From IMG/VR virus record IMGVR_UViG_3300050821_004831, positions 1 through 30,583 of that record: a stretch of DNA of 30,583 bases; one strand, given 5' to 3'. Below, one piece after another: positions 21,684 through 29,567 of the stretch (positions within the stretch are counted from its first letter, which is position 1; each line of letters opens with the position of its first letter). Position numbers and translations under genes: made by a program. The notes beneath the pieces are model-generated. The model saw only the letters and a list, made by a program, of their open reading frames with translations, was not told where the DNA came from and ran no database searches. The DNA is from a virus.

Positions 21684-22712
21684 TTAAGTCAGCGCCGATT
21701 CAGTGTTGATCAACTGATCAACAATCCTGATCGGGATGCCACGGAACTCCACGATGGGCTGACCGTCGTATTCCGTCGGCTTGAGCAACACGTTCTTGTC
21801 CCTAATGGCTTGTATGTCCAAGTATTGGCGGACAGTACGATTGCAGTACCAAGCGGGCCGAATAGCCGGAGCCGGCTGGTTCGGCGCATCGACCTTCATG
21901 ATGCCCGAAATGCGCCGCCCCGAGGCCGGCAAGTGCACGACCATTTTCGACATGCCGGCGAACAGGTCGGGCGGGGTCGGACCCGCAAGGCCAGCCGTCG
22001 TCGTGTCGATGTTGGCGCCGCGCACCACATACTGCCAGTTTTTCAGGTGCAGGCCGGCCTTCCACATGAACATCGAGGTGTAAGCCTCGAATTCAAGCCG
22101 GTTGGCATCGAAGCCGGGGCGAATGTCGCCCTTGTCCTCAAACACCAGGCCTGCGCGCTGGCCTTTCGGGAAGATGCCATGGACCGTCTGTTCGCCCCAG
22201 CAGATCAGCCAGAGCGAGGTATTGGCAGAAGCCGTGCCGCCGAAGTTGAACACGTTGGCGGCGTTCTGGGCGTTCGCCAGCGAGATGGTGTTAAACCTGG
22301 GCGAGAGCCCGGTGAATTGCGCCTGCGTCACGGCGACGTTGCCATAGAAGTAGGTGCCGGCCATCTGCTGACTAAGCCCTTCGAGGTGGGCGTTGTCCTC
22401 GGAGAGCCGAAGTGCGGCGACGTTCCCTTCGAGGTCGGCTAGCGACCGATCGATTCTCGAATAGGCGAACAGTTCGCCGATGCCGTCCGTGACCTGCGCC
22501 ACGTTCGACTTGGTGAAGGCGACGCCCTGGTACATGTTGCGCCAGGTGCCTTGGGGAAGGCCGGTGCGGACGGTGCCGACATGGCCCAAAGCCATGTTGC
22601 CTTCGCGGATCAGCATGTCATCGAAGATTTCGTTGCACTGCGCGAGCAGTTCTCCGATGTCGTCGATTGAGCCGTCAGGCCCGAAGTGTCGGGCCCAATC
22701 TGCGAGGTTCAT
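21684..22712 (-). CDS. Major capsid protein (342 aa; possible ATC start at 22721)
   Basis: Identified by position after the scaffold and before the cement protein, and by a pattern I associate with BPP-1-like podovirus capsids. The N-arm has DIGELLAQCNEIFDDM (~18-33), then GHVGTVRTGLP, an E-loop-like region with FAYSRIDRSLADL, a core TYFYGNVAVTQAQFTGLSP, AQNAANVFNFGG and LWLICWGEQTVHGIFP, and a C-terminal P-like domain with AWYCNRTVRQYLDIQAIR and EFRGIPIRIVDQL. The ATG at 22712 is 17 bases from GGAG. An ATC three codons upstream (22721) has ideal spacing and the same surrounding bases as the ATG start of the gene at 10073. Confidence 0.88.
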   Translation of the reverse strand: MNLADWARHFGPDGSIDDIGELLAQCNEIFDDMLIREGNMALGHVGTVRTGLPQGTWRNMYQGVAFTKSNVAQVTDGIGELFAYSRIDRSLADLEGNVAALRLSEDNAHLEGLSQQMAGTYFYGNVAVTQAQFTGLSPRFNTISLANAQNAANVFNFGGTASANTSLWLICWGEQTVHGIFPKGQRAGLVFEDKGDIRPGFDANRLEFEAYTSMFMWKAGLHLKNWQYVVRGANIDTTTAGLAGPTPPDLFAGMSKMVVHLPASGRRISGIMKVDAPNQPAPAIRPAWYCNRTVRQYLDIQAIRDKNVLLKPTEYDGQPIVEFRGIPIRIVDQLINTESALT

Positions 22713-22816: not shown

Positions 22817-23752
22817 TTAACGCGGTGCGGGCGTGGTCCCGTTGTAGCGGGCCATGCCGCGTTCTTGGCGGTTAGGCTGTCGTTGGCGGGGTTCGTGGGC
22901 AGGAATCATAGAGGCTTCCTTGCCCATCATCGCGCCGAACGTGTGCAGCAAAAGCGCCAGATTCACATCATTGCCCATGCCGGTCGCTCGAAGTCGGTCG
23001 CGTAGGGCCGATTGCTTCTCGGGGGGCAAGTATTGTTCGATGACGGTGGCGATGGTGCGCATGGCGGTATCGAACCGCGCGCCCCCCACGACCTCGTCGG
23101 ATTTGAGTTCCGTCAGCCAGCCATTGGTCGTGGTGCGGAAGTTGTCCCAGGACTGTTCCTGCAGCCTTTGGGTAATTTTCGGGGTGATGTCGCGCAGTTC
23201 AGCAAGGTGCAGGTCAAGAAGTTTCTGGGCAACCTCCGGCTTGACCTTTTCGCCTTGCAGCGCGGTGCGCAGTTCCGTCAGCCGTTCCTGGTTGACCTGG
23301 TCGGGCTTGATGTCCTCGGGGAAGGCGAAGGCATACTCGATGGGCGCTTCTGCGGCGGGCGCGGGAGCGGCGTCTGCGGGCTTTGCAGCCTCACCTTCCT
23401 TCGGTTTTTCCGCAGGTTTTGCGGCGGGCGAAACTTCGGCGGGTTTGCCTTCGTCTTTCTTCGTCAGGCCGCCATCCATGGCGGTCGGCGGGAATTCGTT
23501 GGCTTTTGGTTCGGCGGCAGGTGCCGCTTCTGCGGGCCTCGGCGCAGGTTCCACTGCGGGAGCGACCGACGCCGGGACGACCGCGGACGGCCCCGGCGCC
23601 GGCTCCACTGCCGCAGGCGGTGAAGCCGCAGCAGCGGGAACGTTCCCTTGCACGGGAGCAGGACCGGCAGGCGCGGGCTCAGACGACACAGGTTGCGCTT
23701 GGGGGCTTGAGGCCGCTGGCGCGGCGCCTGCCGGATTGGGTTCGTTAGCCAT
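22817..23752 (-). CDS. Capsid scaffolding protein (311 aa)
   Basis: The first ~150 residues are a disordered Ala/Pro/Glu/Lys-rich tract. A folded helical part follows: EYAFAFPEDIKPDQVNQERL, LHLAELRDITPKITQRLQEQ, WDNFRTTTNGWLTELKSDEVVGG, then ATVIEQYLPPEKQSALRDRLRATGMGNDVNLALLLHTFG, given here in parts. This composition, and placement right before the major capsid gene, match scaffolding proteins of podoviruses, which direct head assembly and then leave. The helical C-terminal part would bind the capsid. ATG at 23752 with a weak ribosome site (GAG ten bases upstream), just after repeat element copy 5. Confidence 0.82.
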   Translation of the reverse strand: MANEPNPAGAAPAASSPQAQPVSSEPAPAGPAPVQGNVPAAAASPPAAVEPAPGPSAVVPASVAPAVEPAPRPAEAAPAAEPKANEFPPTAMDGGLTKKDEGKPAEVSPAAKPAEKPKEGEAAKPADAAPAPAAEAPIEYAFAFPEDIKPDQVNQERLTELRTALQGEKVKPEVAQKLLDLHLAELRDITPKITQRLQEQSWDNFRTTTNGWLTELKSDEVVGGARFDTAMRTIATVIEQYLPPEKQSALRDRLRATGMGNDVNLALLLHTFGAMMGKEASMIPAHEPRQRQPNRQERGMARYNGTTPAPR

Positions 23753-23772
23753 TAAGCTTGCTCAACGGTTGA

Positions 23773-23820
23773 TTGGGTCACGAGAGAGTGTTCGGGGGAG
23801 GATCGCCGGAGTCGGTCACC
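23773..23820 (-). promoter_or_regulatory. Dispersed promoter-like element, copy 5
   Basis: Minus strand: GTGACC, 17 bases starting GACTCCGGCGA, CCCGAA, then CACTCTCTCGTGACCC. The TGA inside the first box is the stop of the preceding gene. The tail continues CAATCAACCGTTGAGC, a 16-base stretch shared with copy 6 only. This is the most diverged forward copy, yet it precedes the scaffold-capsid genes, which need strong expression. Confidence 0.6.
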
Positions 23821-24109
23821 CGATCGCCCGTATTTCATGGCGAAGGATTTGCACCGGTTGGAAAGTCGTTTGGTCGATGAAGGTCAGGTCATCGAGGATT
23901 TCATTGGTTTGCGAAAGCATCTCGGCGATTTCACGGATGCGCTCGCTCGGCAGATGGCCCCAACCGACCAAGCTTTGCATCTTGGGCGTCGGCACGATGA
24001 TCGCCCGCACCGGCATCAGCGATGCGGCACGCACTACAGCCGGCGCAGCCACAACCAGCGATGCAAGGCCAGCAATGAAACCGCGGCGGCTGGTGATTAA
24101 CTGGCTCAC
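23816..24109 (-). CDS. Leader-bearing protein with capsid N-arm motif (97 aa)
   Basis: Two parts. Residues 1-36 form a twin-arginine-like or Sec leader: TSRRGFIAGLASLVVAAPAVVRA followed by SLMPVRAI, a combination common in Hyphomicrobiales prophages. Residues ~46-75 (LVGWGHLPSERIREIAEMLS, QTNEILDD) match the major capsid N-arm (LADWARHF...IDDIGELLAQ, CNEIFDD) in order and spacing. The rest ends LRHEIRAIG. Start is GTG 24109, with GGGAG eight bases upstream, overlapping the preceding stop. It may be a capsid-derived fragment joined to an export signal. Function not known. Confidence 0.65.
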   Translation of the reverse strand: MSQLITSRRGFIAGLASLVVAAPAVVRAASLMPVRAIIVPTPKMQSLVGWGHLPSERIREIAEMLSQTNEILDDLTFIDQTTFQPVQILRHEIRAIG

Positions 24110-24555
24110 TGATTGCTCCCATTATTCAACGAACTGACGGGCGCCTTATTCGCCGCCGCCCACTTGGCCTCGTCTGTCTCCCGCTGCGCATCCGCCATGC
24201 GTTCGATGTCGGTCACGCCCGTGAACGGCTTCGGCTCTGCCGCCTCGGCGTCCCGCTGCGCCTTGATGGCACGGCCAAGACGTGCGCGGCGTTCCCGGAT
24301 CATCTTGAGCAGCAAATCCGGGCAGAACCGCTCCAGCTCGCCCTCGATGAAGTCGCCAATCGAGGCGCGGCCGTCGCGCCATGCGGCGCCGAGTGCGTCG
24401 CCGTCGTTGAGATAGCGCTGCTGCCGCGACCCGCAGCGGTCCAAGAGCCGCTCGATGGTGTAGCGGCTCTTCGAGTCCGCCATGATCGCCGACCAGACGG
24501 CGCGGTCCCAATCGTCGAGCTTCGTGGTCTCGGATTGGGTGTCGTCGTCAGCCAC
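24106..24555 (-). CDS. Hypothetical helical phage protein (149 aa)
   Basis: All-helical and charged: DDWDRAVWSAIMADSKSRYT, LLDRCGSRQQRYLNDGDALGAAWRDG, FIEGELERFCPDLLLKMIRERRARL and ERMADAQRETDEAKWAAAN. No recognised family. The layout is loosely like small packaging or assembly helpers. The longer open frame to 24630 would overlap the capsid-like gene. I take GTG at 24555, a few bases after that gene's TAA, although no clear ribosome site is visible. The stop overlaps the next GTG start (GTGA). Confidence 0.65.
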   Translation of the reverse strand: MADDDTQSETTKLDDWDRAVWSAIMADSKSRYTIERLLDRCGSRQQRYLNDGDALGAAWRDGRASIGDFIEGELERFCPDLLLKMIRERRARLGRAIKAQRDAEAAEPKPFTGVTDIERMADAQRETDEAKWAAANKAPVSSLNNGSNQ

Positions 24556-24560
24556 AGAAG

Positions 24561-25262
24561 TTAGACCACACGCTGTTCGTTGGCGCTTAAGCCGACGGCG
24601 CGGACAAAGACGCCTCGAAACCGGCACCAAGCTTCATCGTTATCGTTCAAGGTCGCCCTGATATGAGGCGTGACGTAAATCGTGAAACGACACTTGGTCA
24701 GGTCCCGATGCGGCTCACAAGGCAGCGAGACTAAGGCGCGCGCCAGCAGTGCAAGGAGATGATTCTTGGGCGCATGGGGTTCGACATTGGCGACACGGCA
24801 AATATACCGCCAGTCCGCAATGACGAGGCCGATTTCACCGAGCCCGCTTGCCAACGGAGGCTGGCCATCTGGCGTCACCAAGTAAGTTGCATGGCGGCCC
24901 CAGCCGATGATCCACATTGATGTGAGGGCGGACTGATCGCGGCCTTTGCCGTCAAACACATGGACTGCGTTCTGCGCCCGTGTCGGGTCCATTGTAGCGT
25001 AGCAGGGCGCAAAGCCTGTGATCTGGTCGGTTCTGCGGTAGGAGTCGCCATAAAAGAGTTGCTGGATCATGTCGCGGTGAGGCATGAGGCCGATTGCATA
25101 GGACATTTGGCGGATACCGCCTGTGGTGCGCACGGTTGAGACATGCCCGTGCCGCAGGTTGGCCTGCCGCCAGTACACGTCGCTTTCCCAGGACTCTCGC
25201 GCGGCATCTTCCGGTTCACAGATGAACCCGGCGTCCCGGACTTGCGGAACTGTATCAAGCAT
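24561..25262 (-). CDS. Shortened major-capsid paralogue (233 aa)
   Basis: Aligns by eye along most of the 342-residue major capsid protein of this phage, in order: GHVSTVRT (GHVGTVRT in the capsid), QQLFYGDS, QITGFAP (QFTGLSP), AQNAVHVF (AQNAANVF), SALTSMWIIGWG (ANTSLWLICWG), DWRYICRVANVE (NWQYVVRGANID), LLALLARALVSLP (LFAGMSKMVVHLP) and CRFRGVFVRAV (VEFRGIPIRIV). The capsid N-arm and about 50 residues before the DW-Y motif are missing. It has an intact frame, an 8-base overlap with the preceding gene and tight junctions, so it is not obviously decaying. It may be a minor capsid, vertex or assembly regulator; this is inference. Confidence 0.75.
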   Translation of the reverse strand: MLDTVPQVRDAGFICEPEDAARESWESDVYWRQANLRHGHVSTVRTTGGIRQMSYAIGLMPHRDMIQQLFYGDSYRRTDQITGFAPCYATMDPTRAQNAVHVFDGKGRDQSALTSMWIIGWGRHATYLVTPDGQPPLASGLGEIGLVIADWRYICRVANVEPHAPKNHLLALLARALVSLPCEPHRDLTKCRFTIYVTPHIRATLNDNDEAWCRFRGVFVRAVGLSANEQRVV

Positions 25263-25650
25263 TCAACGCCCTCATTCTCCGCTTCACCTTCCGCCGCTGC
25301 GCTTCCTGATACCAGGCATCGAACAAGAGGATCAGCCGTTTGTCGTTGCCCCAGCCGGAGGCACCGAGCCATTTGATAAAGCCCAAGCCTGGCTGCTGTT
25401 CCGGGGCGGATCGGTCGAGCAGGCGGCGGATTTCGGCGACGACTTTGGTGGCGCGGCCGATGACTTGCGGCAGGTTAGGGATTTCGGCCTCGGCCTGAGC
25501 GGCGCCTTCGGGGTGCGCACCATCGGTTTCCAGGAGCTTCTCGAGGTCGGCGGTCAGCGTGCCGGGCAGCTCGGCGATGCGGGCGTATTCGACCACGATC
25601 CAGCGGAAGCGCTTGTCGAGGTCAACGGGGATGACGTGGGTGTGCGGCAT
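25255..25650 (-). CDS. Hypothetical phage protein (131 aa)
   Basis: No family recognised. An N-terminal helical part FRWIVVEYARIAELPGTLTA (~15-34) leads into an acidic helix and PNLPQVIGRATKVVAEIRRLL (~58-78). Then GFIKWLGASGWGNDKRLILLFDAWYQEAQRR gives an aromatic, basic C-terminal helix. A DNA-binding or packaging role is possible but unsupported. The ATG at 25650 overlaps the previous stop as TGATG. Confidence 0.7.
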   Translation of the reverse strand: MPHTHVIPVDLDKRFRWIVVEYARIAELPGTLTADLEKLLETDGAHPEGAAQAEAEIPNLPQVIGRATKVVAEIRRLLDRSAPEQQPGLGFIKWLGASGWGNDKRLILLFDAWYQEAQRRKVKRRMRALNA

Positions 25651-25853
25651 CAGTCAGCCATGACGGTTGGGATTGTGTGCCAGCAGCCGATGCCGCCTAC
25701 GCTATCGTGTGACCAATACTGCTGCAGGACTTTCTCGGTGTCGCCGGCGCGCGCGGGCCGATACCAGCGAAAGCAGATTCCAGGATGATAACCAGCCGCA
25801 ACAAGGTCAAGGTCCGGCCTATCGTCGATCGGCTCAACGGTTGATTGGATCAC
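25650..25853 (-). CDS. Small hypothetical protein starting inside the repeat element (67 aa)
   Basis: Only GTG 25853 gives a reasonable start: there is no ATG or TTG in the frame before the last codons, and a longer frame would translate element copy 6 and the antisense of the preceding gene. The protein begins VIQSTVEPIDDRPDLDL and contains HPGICFRWYRPARAGDTEKV and IGCWHTIPTVMAD, with two cysteines. No family is recognised. The GTG is the conserved one of the element tail, with AAGG nine to twelve bases upstream, exactly as for the O-antigen ligase-like gene. Confidence 0.6.
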   Translation of the reverse strand: MIQSTVEPIDDRPDLDLVAAGYHPGICFRWYRPARAGDTEKVLQQYWSHDSVGGIGCWHTIPTVMAD

Positions 25854-25892
25854 GCGAGGGCCTTCGTGGGATGCGCGCCGGATTCGGTCACC
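25845..25892 (-). promoter_or_regulatory. Dispersed promoter-like element, copy 6
   Basis: Minus strand: GTGACC, 17 bases starting GAATCCGGCGC, CACGAA, then GGCCCTCGCGTGATCC, and the 16-base tail CAATCAACCGTTGAGC shared with copy 5 (first 4 bases common to most copies). The stop of the preceding gene lies 15 bases upstream. The downstream gene starts at the element's own GTG. Confidence 0.65.
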
Positions 25893-25906
25893 ATGGCGCC
25901 GGGATT

Positions 25907-26413
25907 CTAGTTCGGCCGCGGCACAAAACCAGCCGGCAAGATCACTGCGCTCTTGCTCTGCTTCACCCGGATCAGCCGGGAGCAATCGTCGCGCAGCGCG
26001 TCGAGTGTATTCGCCACCCGCGACCAGCGCAGATCGCCCCGATGGCAGGCCGCCACCTGCCGAGCACCTTTGGCCGCCATATCGAGACCACGATAAACCC
26101 GGTCATAGGCCGCGTGCACCCCCATGTGCGCCGCGTTGAACTTTTCCTGGGACGGCATCGCGTCAACGCCTTCGGTTCCCATGCCGCCGAGCTTCGCCAG
26201 CGCCTTGCGCACATTGTCGAACGATTGCGCGCGCCGAGCCCACCCGGTGTCCTGCCGCGATTGCGCGAGATGCTGCGCGCCGTCGGAGGCCATCTTCAAG
26301 CCTTCGATCACGCGCTCGTAGCTCTCACGCTCCATCATGAGCGTGCCGCGCTTATCGACGACGACGGCTTCCTGCGGTTCGCCGCCGATGTCGGCGGGAT
26401 TGAAGTCATCCAT
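25907..26413 (-). CDS. Helical phage protein (168 aa)
   Basis: All-alpha, with repeated amphipathic segments (RESYERVIEGLKMASDGAQHL, RAQSFDNVRKALAKLGG, HAAYDRVYRGLDMAAKGARQ, TLDALRDDCSRLIRV), where two halves look internally similar: Y-RV-GL-MA--GA-. This suggests an ancient duplication of a ~65-residue helical unit. A role as an internal virion or assembly protein is possible. The ATG at 26413 overlaps the stop of the tiny membrane peptide (TGATG); an extra in-frame TTG one codon earlier is not needed. Confidence 0.75.
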   Translation of the reverse strand: MDDFNPADIGGEPQEAVVVDKRGTLMMERESYERVIEGLKMASDGAQHLAQSRQDTGWARRAQSFDNVRKALAKLGGMGTEGVDAMPSQEKFNAAHMGVHAAYDRVYRGLDMAAKGARQVAACHRGDLRWSRVANTLDALRDDCSRLIRVKQSKSAVILPAGFVPRPN

Positions 26414-26481
26414 CAATGCACCAGCACCGAGACGAAGAGGTAGGCGAAAGTGAAGCCGGAAAGCGCGAGCAGGGTTTTCAT
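26413..26481 (-). CDS. Tiny membrane peptide (22 aa)
   Basis: An ATG overlapping the previous stop (ATGA) begins a 22-residue reading frame, MKTLLALSGFTFAYLFVSVLVH, split here as MKTLLALSGFT and FAYLFVSVLVH. It is one membrane-spanning segment, and its stop overlaps the next ATG (TGATG). Exact coupling at both ends argues that it is translated. It might be a holin-like or signalling peptide, or merely a translational bridge. Confidence 0.5.
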   Translation of the reverse strand: MKTLLALSGFTFAYLFVSVLVH

Positions 26482-26648
26482 CGGGCCACTCGATTCAGAT
26501 AAAACCTCGCAAAAGCCCCCCAATCCTGGAGCCAGCGAGTCTCTCCATCAAACCACACGCAAAAGTCGGCGCTGTGGGAAAGGGCGTCCGGCTCCATCAA
26601 GCTGATGGTAGCGTGCATAAGTTGCAATGTCAGAAGCGTAGGCTTCAT
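26478..26648 (-). CDS. Small hypothetical protein (56 aa)
   Basis: Starts MKPTLLTLQLMHATISLMEP and ends ARFYLNRVAR. Contains an aromatic cluster (CVWFDGETRWLQDWGAFARFY). The ATG overlaps the portal stop by two bases (ATGA), and its own stop overlaps the 22-residue peptide. No known family. Protein-like composition and tight junctions support it. Confidence 0.6.
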   Translation of the reverse strand: MKPTLLTLQLMHATISLMEPDALSHSADFCVWFDGETRWLQDWGAFARFYLNRVAR

Positions 26649-28516
26649 CCCGGCACCCCGGCTCCCATGCCACTCGGTCCCCCGAGCATCAACTGCGCCG
26701 CATTGATCCCGCCGCCCACATCGGTCTCCGACAGGTTCTTCGCGGCCATGGCCAGTGCCGGCGTGATCGCCGTCGCCGCGTGCGACATCTGCGCGCCCTG
26801 CGCGGCCTGTGCCGCCGCCTGCTGCTTCTGCTTGCGGATGGCGAGAAGTTTTTCGGGCGGTACGAACACTTTTTGCGTCACTCCCAACTGATCGCCATAT
26901 TCCCGCAGGATTTCGTCGTCGTCAAGCAGGTCGAGGACCGCCGGATTGGTCGCTGCCATCTTGCCCTGCACGGCCAGCAACCGCTCTATACCTGCCGTGG
27001 CTGTGGCCCGCTGCGCAAGGGCCAGCATCGAGATATACTCGATCTGCACCGGCACATTGCGGAGAGATTGTGGCAACGGTGGCACAAGCTGCCGCCGCTG
27101 CATGATCGCGAACACCCGCTTAATCGCTTTCGATGCCGCCTCATTGTTGAAGCGCTCGATCACCGGGCCAAGGACTTGCAGCTTTTCCTGCTGGCGCTGG
27201 GCCACCTCGTAGGCAGTCATATCCTTGGTCTGTTCCGCCAGCATCTGGAACAAGTCGTTGAAGAAGCCGACCTTGATCCGCTGCTGAATTAAGGCAATGT
27301 CGGCGGTGATGTATTGCAGCGCCACCGGGTTCACGTCGAACACCGACTTGATACCCTTGGACGTATCGGACGTGTAGTTCTGCTTGCCCGGCAGAATCGA
27401 GGATGGCTGGTTCTTGAGTTCCACCGGCACGTTCAGCGGCGGACGGACGTGCTTTTCGAGAAGTTCGGCCTTGCGCAGCGTTTCCTGCTGCAACTGCATG
27501 ATGTCGGGCAGGCAATCCTTGCCGGGGCTGTCGCCATAGGCGGCCCCGGGCCTTAGCCACCATCGCGGCGCAATGAAAGGCTCGTCTTTGAAACCTCGAA
27601 TAGAAAGCGGTTGCCATTCCGACGAGCCATAGACCCAGTACACCTCTCGATAAGCAAAATCCCCGGCGACTTTGCCGTAGGCTCTTGGATCACCCGGACG
27701 CTGAATCTCGAAGTTCGGTTCGATAGCGTGCGCAATGATGCGCTCTTGCTCAAGGCTGCCGCCTTTGTTTTGCCAAAGGGAACGAACGTCTTGAGGTGCA
27801 ACGTCCAGTCCCCAAGCCTCGACAATCTGGCTGATGTTAAAAACGAATTGCCGGTAGAAGCTTTCGACACGATTGGACGCTCCCAAACTTAGATAATACT
27901 CGCCCGCGCACGGGTTGTAACAGCGGATGATGTCGTCGTCGTCCTCGTAGATCAGCATCGGGCCGGTGCCGTAGCTGATCAGGTCCTCCATCATCTGCGC
28001 GCCGCAATCGTAAAAGTTCGAATGCGACATGATCGCACTCATGCGCTCGGTGACTTCCTCGAACCACATGGTGGCAGCCCGATCCGGCGTGAAGTTCTTG
28101 GGACCTCCAAGTTTGAACCACGGCCGTGACGGGCTCATCAGCCCCTCGACCATGCCCGCCGCCGCAATCCGCATCGCCAAGGTGCCGGTCGGATCGAGGA
28201 TCGACTGATTGATCGGCAGATTGCGGATCATCGAGTTCGGCACCGGCTGGTCGTAACCGCCTTGCGTCAGCCATTGGCTACGTCGAGGCAGTAGGTATTG
28301 CGCGACCAGCGCATCGTGCTCCAACTCCGACGTGCGCCAGCCGCGCAGCATCATCAACCGGCCTTCGAGGTGGCTTCTCAGGTCCACCCATTCGGCGAGC
28401 TTTTGCCGGCTGCCGCCGAACTTGGTCGTCGGCGCCATGGGCGCGGTATTGGCGAGCGTCGCCGCGGTGGCGTGCTCATAGCGCGTGGCGGCGCGTTCGG
28501 CGGCGGAAGCGGCCAT
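26645..28516 (-). CDS. Portal / head-to-tail connecting protein (623 aa)
   Basis: Typical podovirus head-tail connector family. Visible blocks are LVAQYLLPRRSQWLTQGG near residue 70, MVEGLMSPSRPWFKLGG (~115), WFEEVTERMSAIMSHSNFYD (~145), YGTGPMLIYEDDDDIIRCY (~175-193), GEYYLSLGASNRVESFYRQF, a conserved WWLRPGAAYGDSPGKDCLPDI (~340-360) and QTKDMTAYEVAQRQQEKLQVLGPVI (~435). Twelve copies form the dodecameric channel through which DNA is packed. The length fits the family (500-700). The C-terminal ~60 residues are Ala/Gln/Met-rich. The start overlaps the preceding stop (TGATG). Confidence 0.93.
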   Translation of the reverse strand: MAASAAERAATRYEHATAATLANTAPMAPTTKFGGSRQKLAEWVDLRSHLEGRLMMLRGWRTSELEHDALVAQYLLPRRSQWLTQGGYDQPVPNSMIRNLPINQSILDPTGTLAMRIAAAGMVEGLMSPSRPWFKLGGPKNFTPDRAATMWFEEVTERMSAIMSHSNFYDCGAQMMEDLISYGTGPMLIYEDDDDIIRCYNPCAGEYYLSLGASNRVESFYRQFVFNISQIVEAWGLDVAPQDVRSLWQNKGGSLEQERIIAHAIEPNFEIQRPGDPRAYGKVAGDFAYREVYWVYGSSEWQPLSIRGFKDEPFIAPRWWLRPGAAYGDSPGKDCLPDIMQLQQETLRKAELLEKHVRPPLNVPVELKNQPSSILPGKQNYTSDTSKGIKSVFDVNPVALQYITADIALIQQRIKVGFFNDLFQMLAEQTKDMTAYEVAQRQQEKLQVLGPVIERFNNEAASKAIKRVFAIMQRRQLVPPLPQSLRNVPVQIEYISMLALAQRATATAGIERLLAVQGKMAATNPAVLDLLDDDEILREYGDQLGVTQKVFVPPEKLLAIRKQKQQAAAQAAQGAQMSHAATAITPALAMAAKNLSETDVGGGINAAQLMLGGPSGMGAGVPG

Positions 28517-28821
28517 CAGTGAGGGGCGTCGCCTTCGATCTCTATGGGAACGCCGTTGAAAGAGCGCACGGGATAGCCGTCGTGATCTTCATGGCAGGTT
28601 GACAGGATTTTCCCGTTGGAACGGATGGCCTCCAGGTCCATCTTTTGCGCCGTCGCTCGGTCGCAATGCCATCGGTGCGAAGCGATAAGGCTGTGGGTCG
28701 GATCATCGACAGGCAAATGGCAGAGTCGGTGAATGTCGCGCATGGCGGCAAAGTAGCCGCCCGCGGCCTCCACGATCTTCACAACCGGCTGTGCGCCGTC
28801 GGCACGTCGCAATTCAAGCAT
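28516..28821 (-). CDS. Protein resembling the major capsid C-terminus (101 aa)
   Basis: True start is ATG 28821 (MLELRRADGAQ), overlapping the stop of the duplicated small gene. A longer frame reads into other genes and is rejected. Residues ~30-98 parallel the end of this phage's capsid protein: FAAMRD..RLCHLP (FAGMSKMVVHLP), HRWHCDRATAQKMDLEAIR (RPAWYCNRTVRQYLDIQAIR), and HDGYPVRSFNGVPIEI (YDGQPIVEFRGIPIRI). It thus seems to be a capsid C-terminal domain encoded alone, next to the portal gene. Role unknown; perhaps a portal-vertex contact. The family link is my alignment by eye. Confidence 0.68.
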   Translation of the reverse strand: MLELRRADGAQPVVKIVEAAGGYFAAMRDIHRLCHLPVDDPTHSLIASHRWHCDRATAQKMDLEAIRSNGKILSTCHEDHDGYPVRSFNGVPIEIEGDAPH

Positions 28822-28890
28822 CACTGCCCCGTCAAGCTTTTCGCCGCCGACGGCGGCTTGCCCAGCACACCCTGCGGCCCGGTATCGAGC
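28820..28890. repeat. Direct repeat A, copy 1 (71 bp)
   Basis: Matches 29079-29149 with two mismatches, offset 259. A second matched block (28894-28929 with 29279-29314, two mismatches in 36) marks the other end of the duplicated gene. Together they show that the 35-residue gene is a shortened copy of the 77-residue gene. Confidence 0.9.
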
Positions 28891-28928
28891 CGCGCCGGGA
28901 TCGACGGCGGTGAGAACAGCGAGCCCAT
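28821..28928 (-). CDS. Very short copy of the neighbouring proline-rich gene (35 aa)
   Basis: MGSLFSPPSIPARLDTGP followed by QGVLGKPPSAAKSLTGQ. It equals the N-terminus (MGALLSPPSIPAP) joined to the C-terminus (LDTGPQGVLGKPATAAKSLTGQ, given in part) of the gene at 29080-29313, lacking its ~40-residue middle. It starts and ends with TGATG-type overlaps. Probably a duplicated copy reduced by an internal deletion that kept the frame. Confidence 0.55.
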   Translation of the reverse strand: MGSLFSPPSIPARLDTGPQGVLGKPPSAAKSLTGQ

Positions 28929-29080
28929 CACCAATGCCACAGTTTATGGTCGTGGACACCAAGGTCACGGTCGCAAATGTCGCACCAGCCGAACTTGCGG
29001 CTCGAAGTCGAGAGCAGGAACCAGCTTTGGCGATGAGCGATCATGCACCACGTTTTGCGCAAAAGAGCGACCAGTCCCAT
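28928..29080 (-). CDS. Small zinc-binding-like protein between duplicated genes (50 aa)
   Basis: The frame fits exactly between the two copies of the proline-rich gene, with TGATG overlaps on both sides. A basic N-terminal half (LLRKTWCMIAHRQSWFLL) is followed by GWCDICDRDLGVHDHKLWHW, in which C33, C36, H43, H45 and H49 could coordinate one zinc ion. No known family is recalled. It is too small for a nuclease; an RNA- or protein-binding knuckle is conceivable. Confidence 0.6.
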   Translation of the reverse strand: MGLVALLRKTWCMIAHRQSWFLLSTSSRKFGWCDICDRDLGVHDHKLWHW

Positions 29081-29149
29081 CACTGCCCCGTCAAGCTTTT
29101 CGCCGCCGTCGCCGGCTTGCCCAGCACACCCTGCGGCCCGGTATCGAGC
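29079..29149. repeat. Direct repeat A, copy 2 (71 bp)
   Basis: Partner of 28820-28890. It encodes the C-terminus of the 77-residue proline-rich protein. The zinc-like 50-residue gene lies between the two copies. Confidence 0.9.
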
Positions 29150-29313
29150 GTCCCGCCGTAGCCCGCACCTGATGCTCGTGCCGCCGCCGCCCGTTGACTC
29201 GCAGCGGCTTGCGTCACCTGCGCATTCGCCATCGTCGCCGGCATCGCCGCGGGCGGCAACGGCGGCGGCGGTGGAGGTGCCGGGATCGACGGCGGTGACA
29301 ACAGCGCGCCCAT
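29080..29313 (-). CDS. Proline/alanine-rich small phage protein (77 aa)
   Basis: Opening MGALLSPPSIPAPPPPPPLP, then an Ala/Gln/Thr-rich low-complexity middle and the C-terminus TLDTGPQGVLGKPATAAKS. Small proteins with M-G-x-L...PP starts and GxxGD/GK ends often lie between terminase and portal genes; function unknown. A shorter duplicate lies downstream. The ATG overlaps the previous stop. Confidence 0.65.
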   Translation of the reverse strand: MGALLSPPSIPAPPPPPPLPPAAMPATMANAQVTQAAASQRAAAARASGAGYGGTLDTGPQGVLGKPATAAKSLTGQ

Positions 29314-29567
29314 CAGGTCAACAGCTTAAAGCCAGGACCGCCGCCCGGCGGCTGGCCTTGTTGGGTTCCGGTGGTCGGAACGAGGCCGTAGCGCCCGGCC
29401 GGCGCCGCGGCGGCGCGGGTGGATTGGCCAGTGTTGGCACCAATGGCAGCTCCCAATTGTTTTGCACCATAGTCAGGCGGCGGCAGCGCCAGCGAGAGGC
29501 CGCCACCCAGCGGCACCGGCGGCGGGGTGGTGTTGAAGAAGTTGGTAAAAGCTGGCAGCGAGCCCAT
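29313..29567 (-). CDS. Small proline/glycine-rich phage protein (84 aa)
   Basis: MGSLPAFTNFFNTTPPPVPL at the start (similar in style to the two neighbours' MG-L starts), then LALPPPDYGAKQLGAAIGAN and a Gly/Pro/Gln-rich tail ending PGFKLLT. Unknown function, probably flexible. The ATG overlaps the preceding TGA; the stop region overlaps the next ATG. Confidence 0.65.
   Translation of the reverse strand: MGSLPAFTNFFNTTPPPVPLGGGLSLALPPPDYGAKQLGAAIGANTGQSTRAAAAPAGRYGLVPTTGTQQGQPPGGGPGFKLLT

Follow-up and report, generated by a model that had tools for sequence, protein, structure and literature searches.

Phage genes that preserve parts of the major capsid protein, and a family that joins such parts to a Tat-type leader

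The window analysed here, the full 30,583 bases of a virus record (IMG/VR IMGVR_UViG_3300050821_004831), carries three small genes in its head-gene block that profile comparisons identify as accessory copies of parts of the major capsid protein (MCP), kept as small proteins. The shortest, of 97 amino acids (aa), belongs by the same comparisons to a family of proteins that begin with a twin-arginine (Tat) type signal and continue into a contact segment of the MCP of the same phage. Profiles across many phages establish the capsid origin of these segments, the leader and the repeated, independent joining of the two. The open reading frames (ORFs) and coordinates that an earlier sequence-only reading had given for the three genes were correct, and its derivation of them from the capsid protein is borne out: the profile search and fold prediction that it proposed as a check found the relation to the MCP, by both routes for the 233-aa protein and by profiles for the 97- and 101-aa proteins. 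The four genes concerned are:

21684–22712, minus strand: MCP, 342 aa, of the epsilon15 gp7 / BPP-1 Bbp17 type (Pfam GP7, 8.2e-108; PHROG 212 major head protein; PDB 3j4u, 1.9e-107).
23816–24109, minus strand: 97-aa protein, a Tat-type signal (SRRGFIAGLASLVVAAPAVVRAASLMPVR) fused to an MCP N-arm (IREIAEMLSQTNEILDD), assigned from an N-arm hidden Markov model (HMM), GP7, shuffles, the leader family and a sub-threshold match to TIGR01409.
24561–25262, minus strand: 233-aa miniature MCP (mini-MCP), assigned from GP7, AlphaFold, Foldseek and a counterpart in phage L022.
28516–28821, minus strand: 101-aa C-terminal (alpha-element) fragment of the MCP (BLASTP 9e-11; P-domain HMM 6e-5; alignment).

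The 97-aa protein matches the N-arm of the MCP with a sub-profile HMM at an E value of 6.6e-6, in searches that, for both the N-arm and the P-domain, spanned every ORF of 124 loci, nearly all of the records used being metagenomic. None of 2000 shuffles gave an equally good match. Against the whole Pfam GP7 model the protein scores 17.9 bits (E 0.0015), below the cut-off of 27, and the homology rests on the sub-profile. The sequence-only reading was therefore right that this gene keeps the N-arm, but only half of the protein is capsid and it had overlooked the first ~35 residues, a putative signal peptide of the Tat type. The twin-arginine motif is present, and the leader scores 13.7 bits against TIGR01409 with a cut-off of 16.7; the curated Tat models TIGR01409 and PF10518 in general score these leaders slightly under their cut-offs. 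In 385 alphaproteobacterial genomes, a profile of the leader picks up ordinary cellular proteins by their N-terminal Tat signals, with matches that span the first ~22 profile positions. Like those described by the two curated models, the leader has an RRxFL motif, a short hydrophobic stretch and an APAIVRA region as in alphaproteobacterial Tat substrates; unlike ordinary Tat signals, it then continues into a near-invariant SLMPV[KR] and, in many cases, a piece of capsid protein. It is this signal that places the 97-aa protein in the wider family. The related phage L016 has a similar leader, followed by a tail in which two pieces, in collinear order, are similar to the MCP N-terminus. A separate N-arm fragment without a Tat leader was seen upstream of the small terminase at L093:213-404 (N-arm HMM E 0.0025); the large terminase of the same locus (L093:866-3526) has an intein-looking insert at its nucleotide-binding region.

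Membership of the family is defined here as having a leader of the form RRxFLxGL..AAPAIVRASSLMPV[KR] and, behind it, part of an MCP, a definition that takes in the 97-aa protein. Scanning with leader motifs gave 49 additional phage loci and, since the patterns were built from the leader alone, there was no selection for capsid tails of other families. Ten of the 47 distinct tails match an MCP at an E value of 0.01 or better, whereas no match came from the 1374 other small ORFs in these loci or from 47 shuffled tails (Fisher p 6e-16). MCP-matching tails are of the GP7 type in the window, L142 (twice) and L136, of the P22 coat type in L138, L139 (twice) and L145, and of the phrog_9953 and Phage_capsid_3 types in L170 and L134, respectively; a fifth family, phrog_371, is matched by the tail of L173 (E 7e-5). 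These five MCP families are unrelated to one another. Where the MCP of the same phage is on the record the tail matches it (L145, 2e-14; L142, 3e-6 and 1.3e-5; L134, 3.5e-6; L139, 1.7e-16 and 7e-13; L138, 1e-5), and in every phage with a known MCP the tail is of the same family as that MCP. A P22-type coat protein, looked for in 24 leader records, was present only in L138 and L139, both of which have P22-like tails.

The captured segments are mostly MCP N-arms or C-termini, with two MCP pieces joined in permuted order in gene 2 of L139 and in L173. At L139:9618-12051 three leader genes lie near the small terminase, two of which hold the N- and C-terminal parts of the P22-type MCP of that phage, and the leader genes of L142 are on the strand opposite to the head genes, as is usual for morons. 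One tail, at L180:6270-6644, matches a portal protein (PHROG 332, E 5.8e-5). The tail of L182:9950-10264 looks portal-like by eye only. The leader is conserved at the protein level and its codons vary, with serine codons of both classes in use; this free variation indicates that it is kept as a protein, and a DNA-level element in the leader was rejected on the same ground. A search for the leader in INPHARED gave no match, though the BLAST low-complexity filter may mask it.

Only one group of tails, L152–L173, has enough members for dN/dS estimates. Here synonymous change exceeds amino-acid change, with dN/dS ~0.2–0.4 (Fisher p 1e-4 for L163–L173 and 1.7e-5 for L163–L167), which identifies purifying selection, as read from codon comparisons, on the tails of this group. 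Chance similarity of the three window genes to the MCP was rejected, as the best unrelated ORFs of the 124 loci reach an E value of only ~2 and both shuffles and control ORFs were negative.

The 233-aa protein passes the gathering cut-off of Pfam GP7 (PF20911; E 1.6e-23, 83.5 bits, cut-off 27) and is ~30% identical to the window MCP (BLASTP 7e-13). It had been described as keeping most of the core and the C-domain, which agrees with its coverage of MCP columns 31–295 in the HMM, with a last ~30 residues that can be aligned to the MCP C-terminus, and with a predicted HK97 core; the description missed three internal deletions. Alignment with 43 MCPs places these in the E-loop together with part of the spine helix, in the DKGDI hairpin and in part of the alpha-element, and most of the N-arm is also absent. 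The AlphaFold model (pLDDT 85, pTM 0.84) has the HK97 core, with the E-loop cut to a tight hairpin (residues 39–56) and a spine helix limited to residues 62–71, so that the protein falls short of a complete BPP-topology fold, in which the E-loop is present and the spine helix long. The fold of the mini-MCP is thus a prediction, and one that leans on MCPs because these make up most of the input alignment. Foldseek with the model finds the capsid proteins of Carin1 and BPP-1 (8cjz/3j4u) at ~1e-13. A 226-aa protein immediately after the portal of phage L022, the sole other mini-MCP besides the window among ~124 GP7 loci, shows the same losses and pairs with the 233-aa protein in the tree (UFBoot 98), where topology tests allow alternative placements (AU p 0.08–0.25). 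That the frame has stayed open in two phages at ~30% identity with identical deletions points the same way as the purifying selection on the tails, again on comparative grounds. A recent self-copy of this phage's MCP was rejected as the source of the gene, given the ~30% identity and the pairing with L022. No mini-MCP was found besides true MCPs in cultured phages, only full MCPs were found in the 385 alphaproteobacterial genomes, and an exact pattern search of IMG/VR gave no direct copy of the 233-aa or 101-aa gene elsewhere.

The setting of the genes raises the question of whether they serve the phage's own head, as special portal-vertex subunits, cement contacts or membrane-bound procapsid nucleators. 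All three lie on the head-gene strand near the portal, scaffold and MCP genes, and their start and stop codons overlap or abut those of their neighbours, as the sequence-only reading had noted; its placing of the set between the portal and capsid genes holds for the 97- and 233-aa genes but not for the 101-aa gene, which is upstream of the portal. In BPP-1, moreover, it is through the N-arm that the MCP touches the cement protein (PMC3863775). On the other hand, relatives with a 75–80% identical MCP have neither mini-MCP nor 101-aa gene. With the mini-MCP confined to one other GP7 locus and the L142 leader genes on the opposite strand, we regard a role in the phage's own assembly as rather unlikely. 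The vertex, portal-contact, assembly-control and defence roles that the sequence-only reading had suggested for the three proteins are all putative, and the predicted loss of the E-loop, which joins capsomers, makes the 233-aa protein less likely to be a true vertex subunit.

For the 101-aa protein, the claim that it keeps the C-terminal region of the MCP was confirmed by BLASTP (9e-11) and by the P-domain sub-profile (E 6e-5). Pfam GP7 gives no match, the protein having been scanned as a longer 150-aa ORF, and the homology again depends on the sub-profile; the structure prediction (pLDDT 51) is unusable. The gene has no relative elsewhere and its role is only putative. Beside it, at 28819–28930, between it and a 50-aa ORF (28928–29080), is a partial duplicate of a 77-aa gene from which the middle is deleted, recognisable from a 72-nt repeat 97% identical to 29078–29149 and a 37-nt repeat 95% identical to 29279–29315. 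TGATG forms every junction in the series 77-aa gene, 50-aa ORF, short copy, 101-aa gene and portal. From the duplicate and these junctions, the 101-aa gene seems to be a recent arrival beside the duplication. No independent copy of the rearranged part of the window was found in IMG/VR by exact pattern.

Such a duplication would be in keeping with illegitimate recombination that keeps leaving short in-frame capsid pieces, mostly functionless, behind leaders and at coupled junctions. That tail pieces are sometimes permuted, and that small ORFs easily stay open, would fit the same origin. Mostly functionless debris nevertheless seems unlikely to us, because the leader is kept as a protein and not as codons, the analysed tails are constrained, the mini-MCP has kept its frame and deletions in two diverged phages, and the control small ORFs hold no capsid pieces.

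The reading that we favour, tentatively, is that these genes are accessory copies of capsid-protein parts whose detached contact surfaces hinder head assembly of relatives, the Tat-tagged ones at the inner membrane. We infer binding to the capsid protein or its partners as the basis of this hindrance. Each fragment would bind full-length MCP, or an MCP partner such as the cement protein, scaffold or portal, through the surface that it has kept; unable to extend the shell, the bound fragment would poison or delay head assembly, mainly that of co-infecting or superinfecting relatives. Tat-tagged forms may in addition hold bound capsid protein at the Tat translocase and inner membrane by the hitchhiker route of Tat complexes, for which carriage of complexes by hitchhiking has been described (PMC4273604). 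Consistent with this, the mini-MCP keeps the core, loses the E-loop and recurs in L022; the tails follow the phage's own MCP family across five target families, with dN/dS of 0.2–0.4 in one group; most captured pieces are N-arms or C-termini, the N-arm being a cement-contact surface in BPP-1; and the L142 leader genes run against the head-gene strand. Several points weigh against it. As a leader is present on only one of the three window proteins, a single mechanism may not account for all; a tail may not fold alone, and Tat export of such a tail is only putative. Over half of the leader tails gave no capsid match, one has a portal match instead, such genes are missing from most relatives, and the permuted order in L139 gene 2 and L173 fits random recombination too. 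With similar caution, leader genes of this kind could be widespread weapons or regulators that combine a Tat export signal with pieces of the phage's own capsid protein, repeatedly invented in at least five unrelated capsid families by phages many of which are probably phages of Alphaproteobacteria, with head assembly at the inner membrane or else competing phages as their target.

A different target for the same surfaces would be capsid-sensing immunity, with the fragments as decoys by which host sensors, CapRel for example, are tied up or removed ahead of the accumulation of full MCP. An MCP directly triggers CapRel-SJ46 (PMC9712102), and the fragments bear MCP surface without the ability to assemble. 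We consider decoys improbable, as a fragment that binds the sensor could equally trigger it and it is hard to see what a Tat signal would do against cytosolic sensors other than pull them to the membrane.

The head genes occupy the minus strand; their order is large terminase, a set of small genes with the 77-aa gene among them, 101-aa gene, portal, 169-aa gene, 131-aa ORF, 233-aa gene, Bbp19-like gene, 97-aa gene, scaffold-position gene and MCP. Those not listed above are:

22817–23752, minus strand: scaffold-position gene directly upstream of the MCP (PHROG 458, 3.1e-15; homologues precede the MCP in relatives).
24106–24630, minus strand: Bbp19-like gene (PF25181, 0.0011, under its cut-off; same place in relatives L004 and L016).
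25255–25650, minus strand: 131-aa ORF coupled to the mini-MCP, its C-terminal part weakly scaffold-like.
25907–26416, minus strand: 169-aa gene, conserved, following the portal in relatives.
26645–28516, minus strand: portal / head-tail connector (PF12236, 1e-121).
28821–28928, minus strand: 35 aa, a second and degenerate copy of the 77-aa gene, immediately upstream of the 101-aa gene (72-nt and 37-nt repeats).
29080–29313, minus strand: 77-aa gene, which precedes the portal in relatives L004 and L016 (PHROG 831, 2.8e-5).

The C-terminal GxGN region of the 131-aa ORF is suggestive of a scaffold remnant, which would make it a fourth gene of the set, paired with the mini-MCP; its score against the scaffold profile, 9 bits, is not significant across the full ORF set. 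A 75-nt direct repeat of 79% identity, possibly a regulatory element or a recombination scar, lies at 23760–23834, before the scaffold-position gene, and at 25832–25906, after the 169-aa gene, the latter copy at the start of the extra block that holds the mini-MCP.

Full-size capsid paralogues are already known. The T4 vertex protein gp24 is a full-size capsid subunit and paralogous to the MCP of its own genome, a relationship that the window proteins share, whereas they are reduced or single segments. Among MCPs of the epsilon15 gp7 / BPP-1 Bbp17 type (Pfam GP7; PDB 3j40, 3j4u), to which the window MCP belongs, the 233-aa protein scores above the Pfam cut-off, with a predicted fold matching 3j4u, but is missing the E-loop, the greater part of the N-arm and part of the spine and alpha-element, and the 97- and 101-aa proteins are single segments. 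On the elements of the BPP-1 MCP (N-element 1–168, beta-element 169–241 and alpha-element 242–331; Zhang et al., PMC3863775) the 97-aa protein maps to the N-arm and the 101-aa protein to the alpha-element, the 233-aa protein covering mainly the beta-element and the end of the N-element. Ccm of SaPIbov5, a capsid homologue that redirects helper capsid assembly (PMC8569155), likewise exists next to the genuine capsid protein as an additional homologue of it; Ccm has the full HK97 fold with E-loop and makes pentamers, in contrast to the 233-aa protein, which is without E-loop and sits in a phage head operon. Tab, a prophage protein that blocks virion assembly of invaders at tail assembly via the tape measure protein (PMC10884400), is a precedent for blocking assembly only, with no sequence kinship claimed, and it hits tails rather than heads. 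What appears to be new is not the mini-MCP alone but the leader-plus-capsid-fragment proteins, export-signal proteins with a body cut from the capsid protein of the same phage across five unrelated capsid families; no description of proteins combining a Tat signal with a capsid fragment was found in the open-access literature searched. The role of capsid fragments thereby becomes testable and, if they do act on assembly, they would give phages a novel means of controlling or attacking heads.

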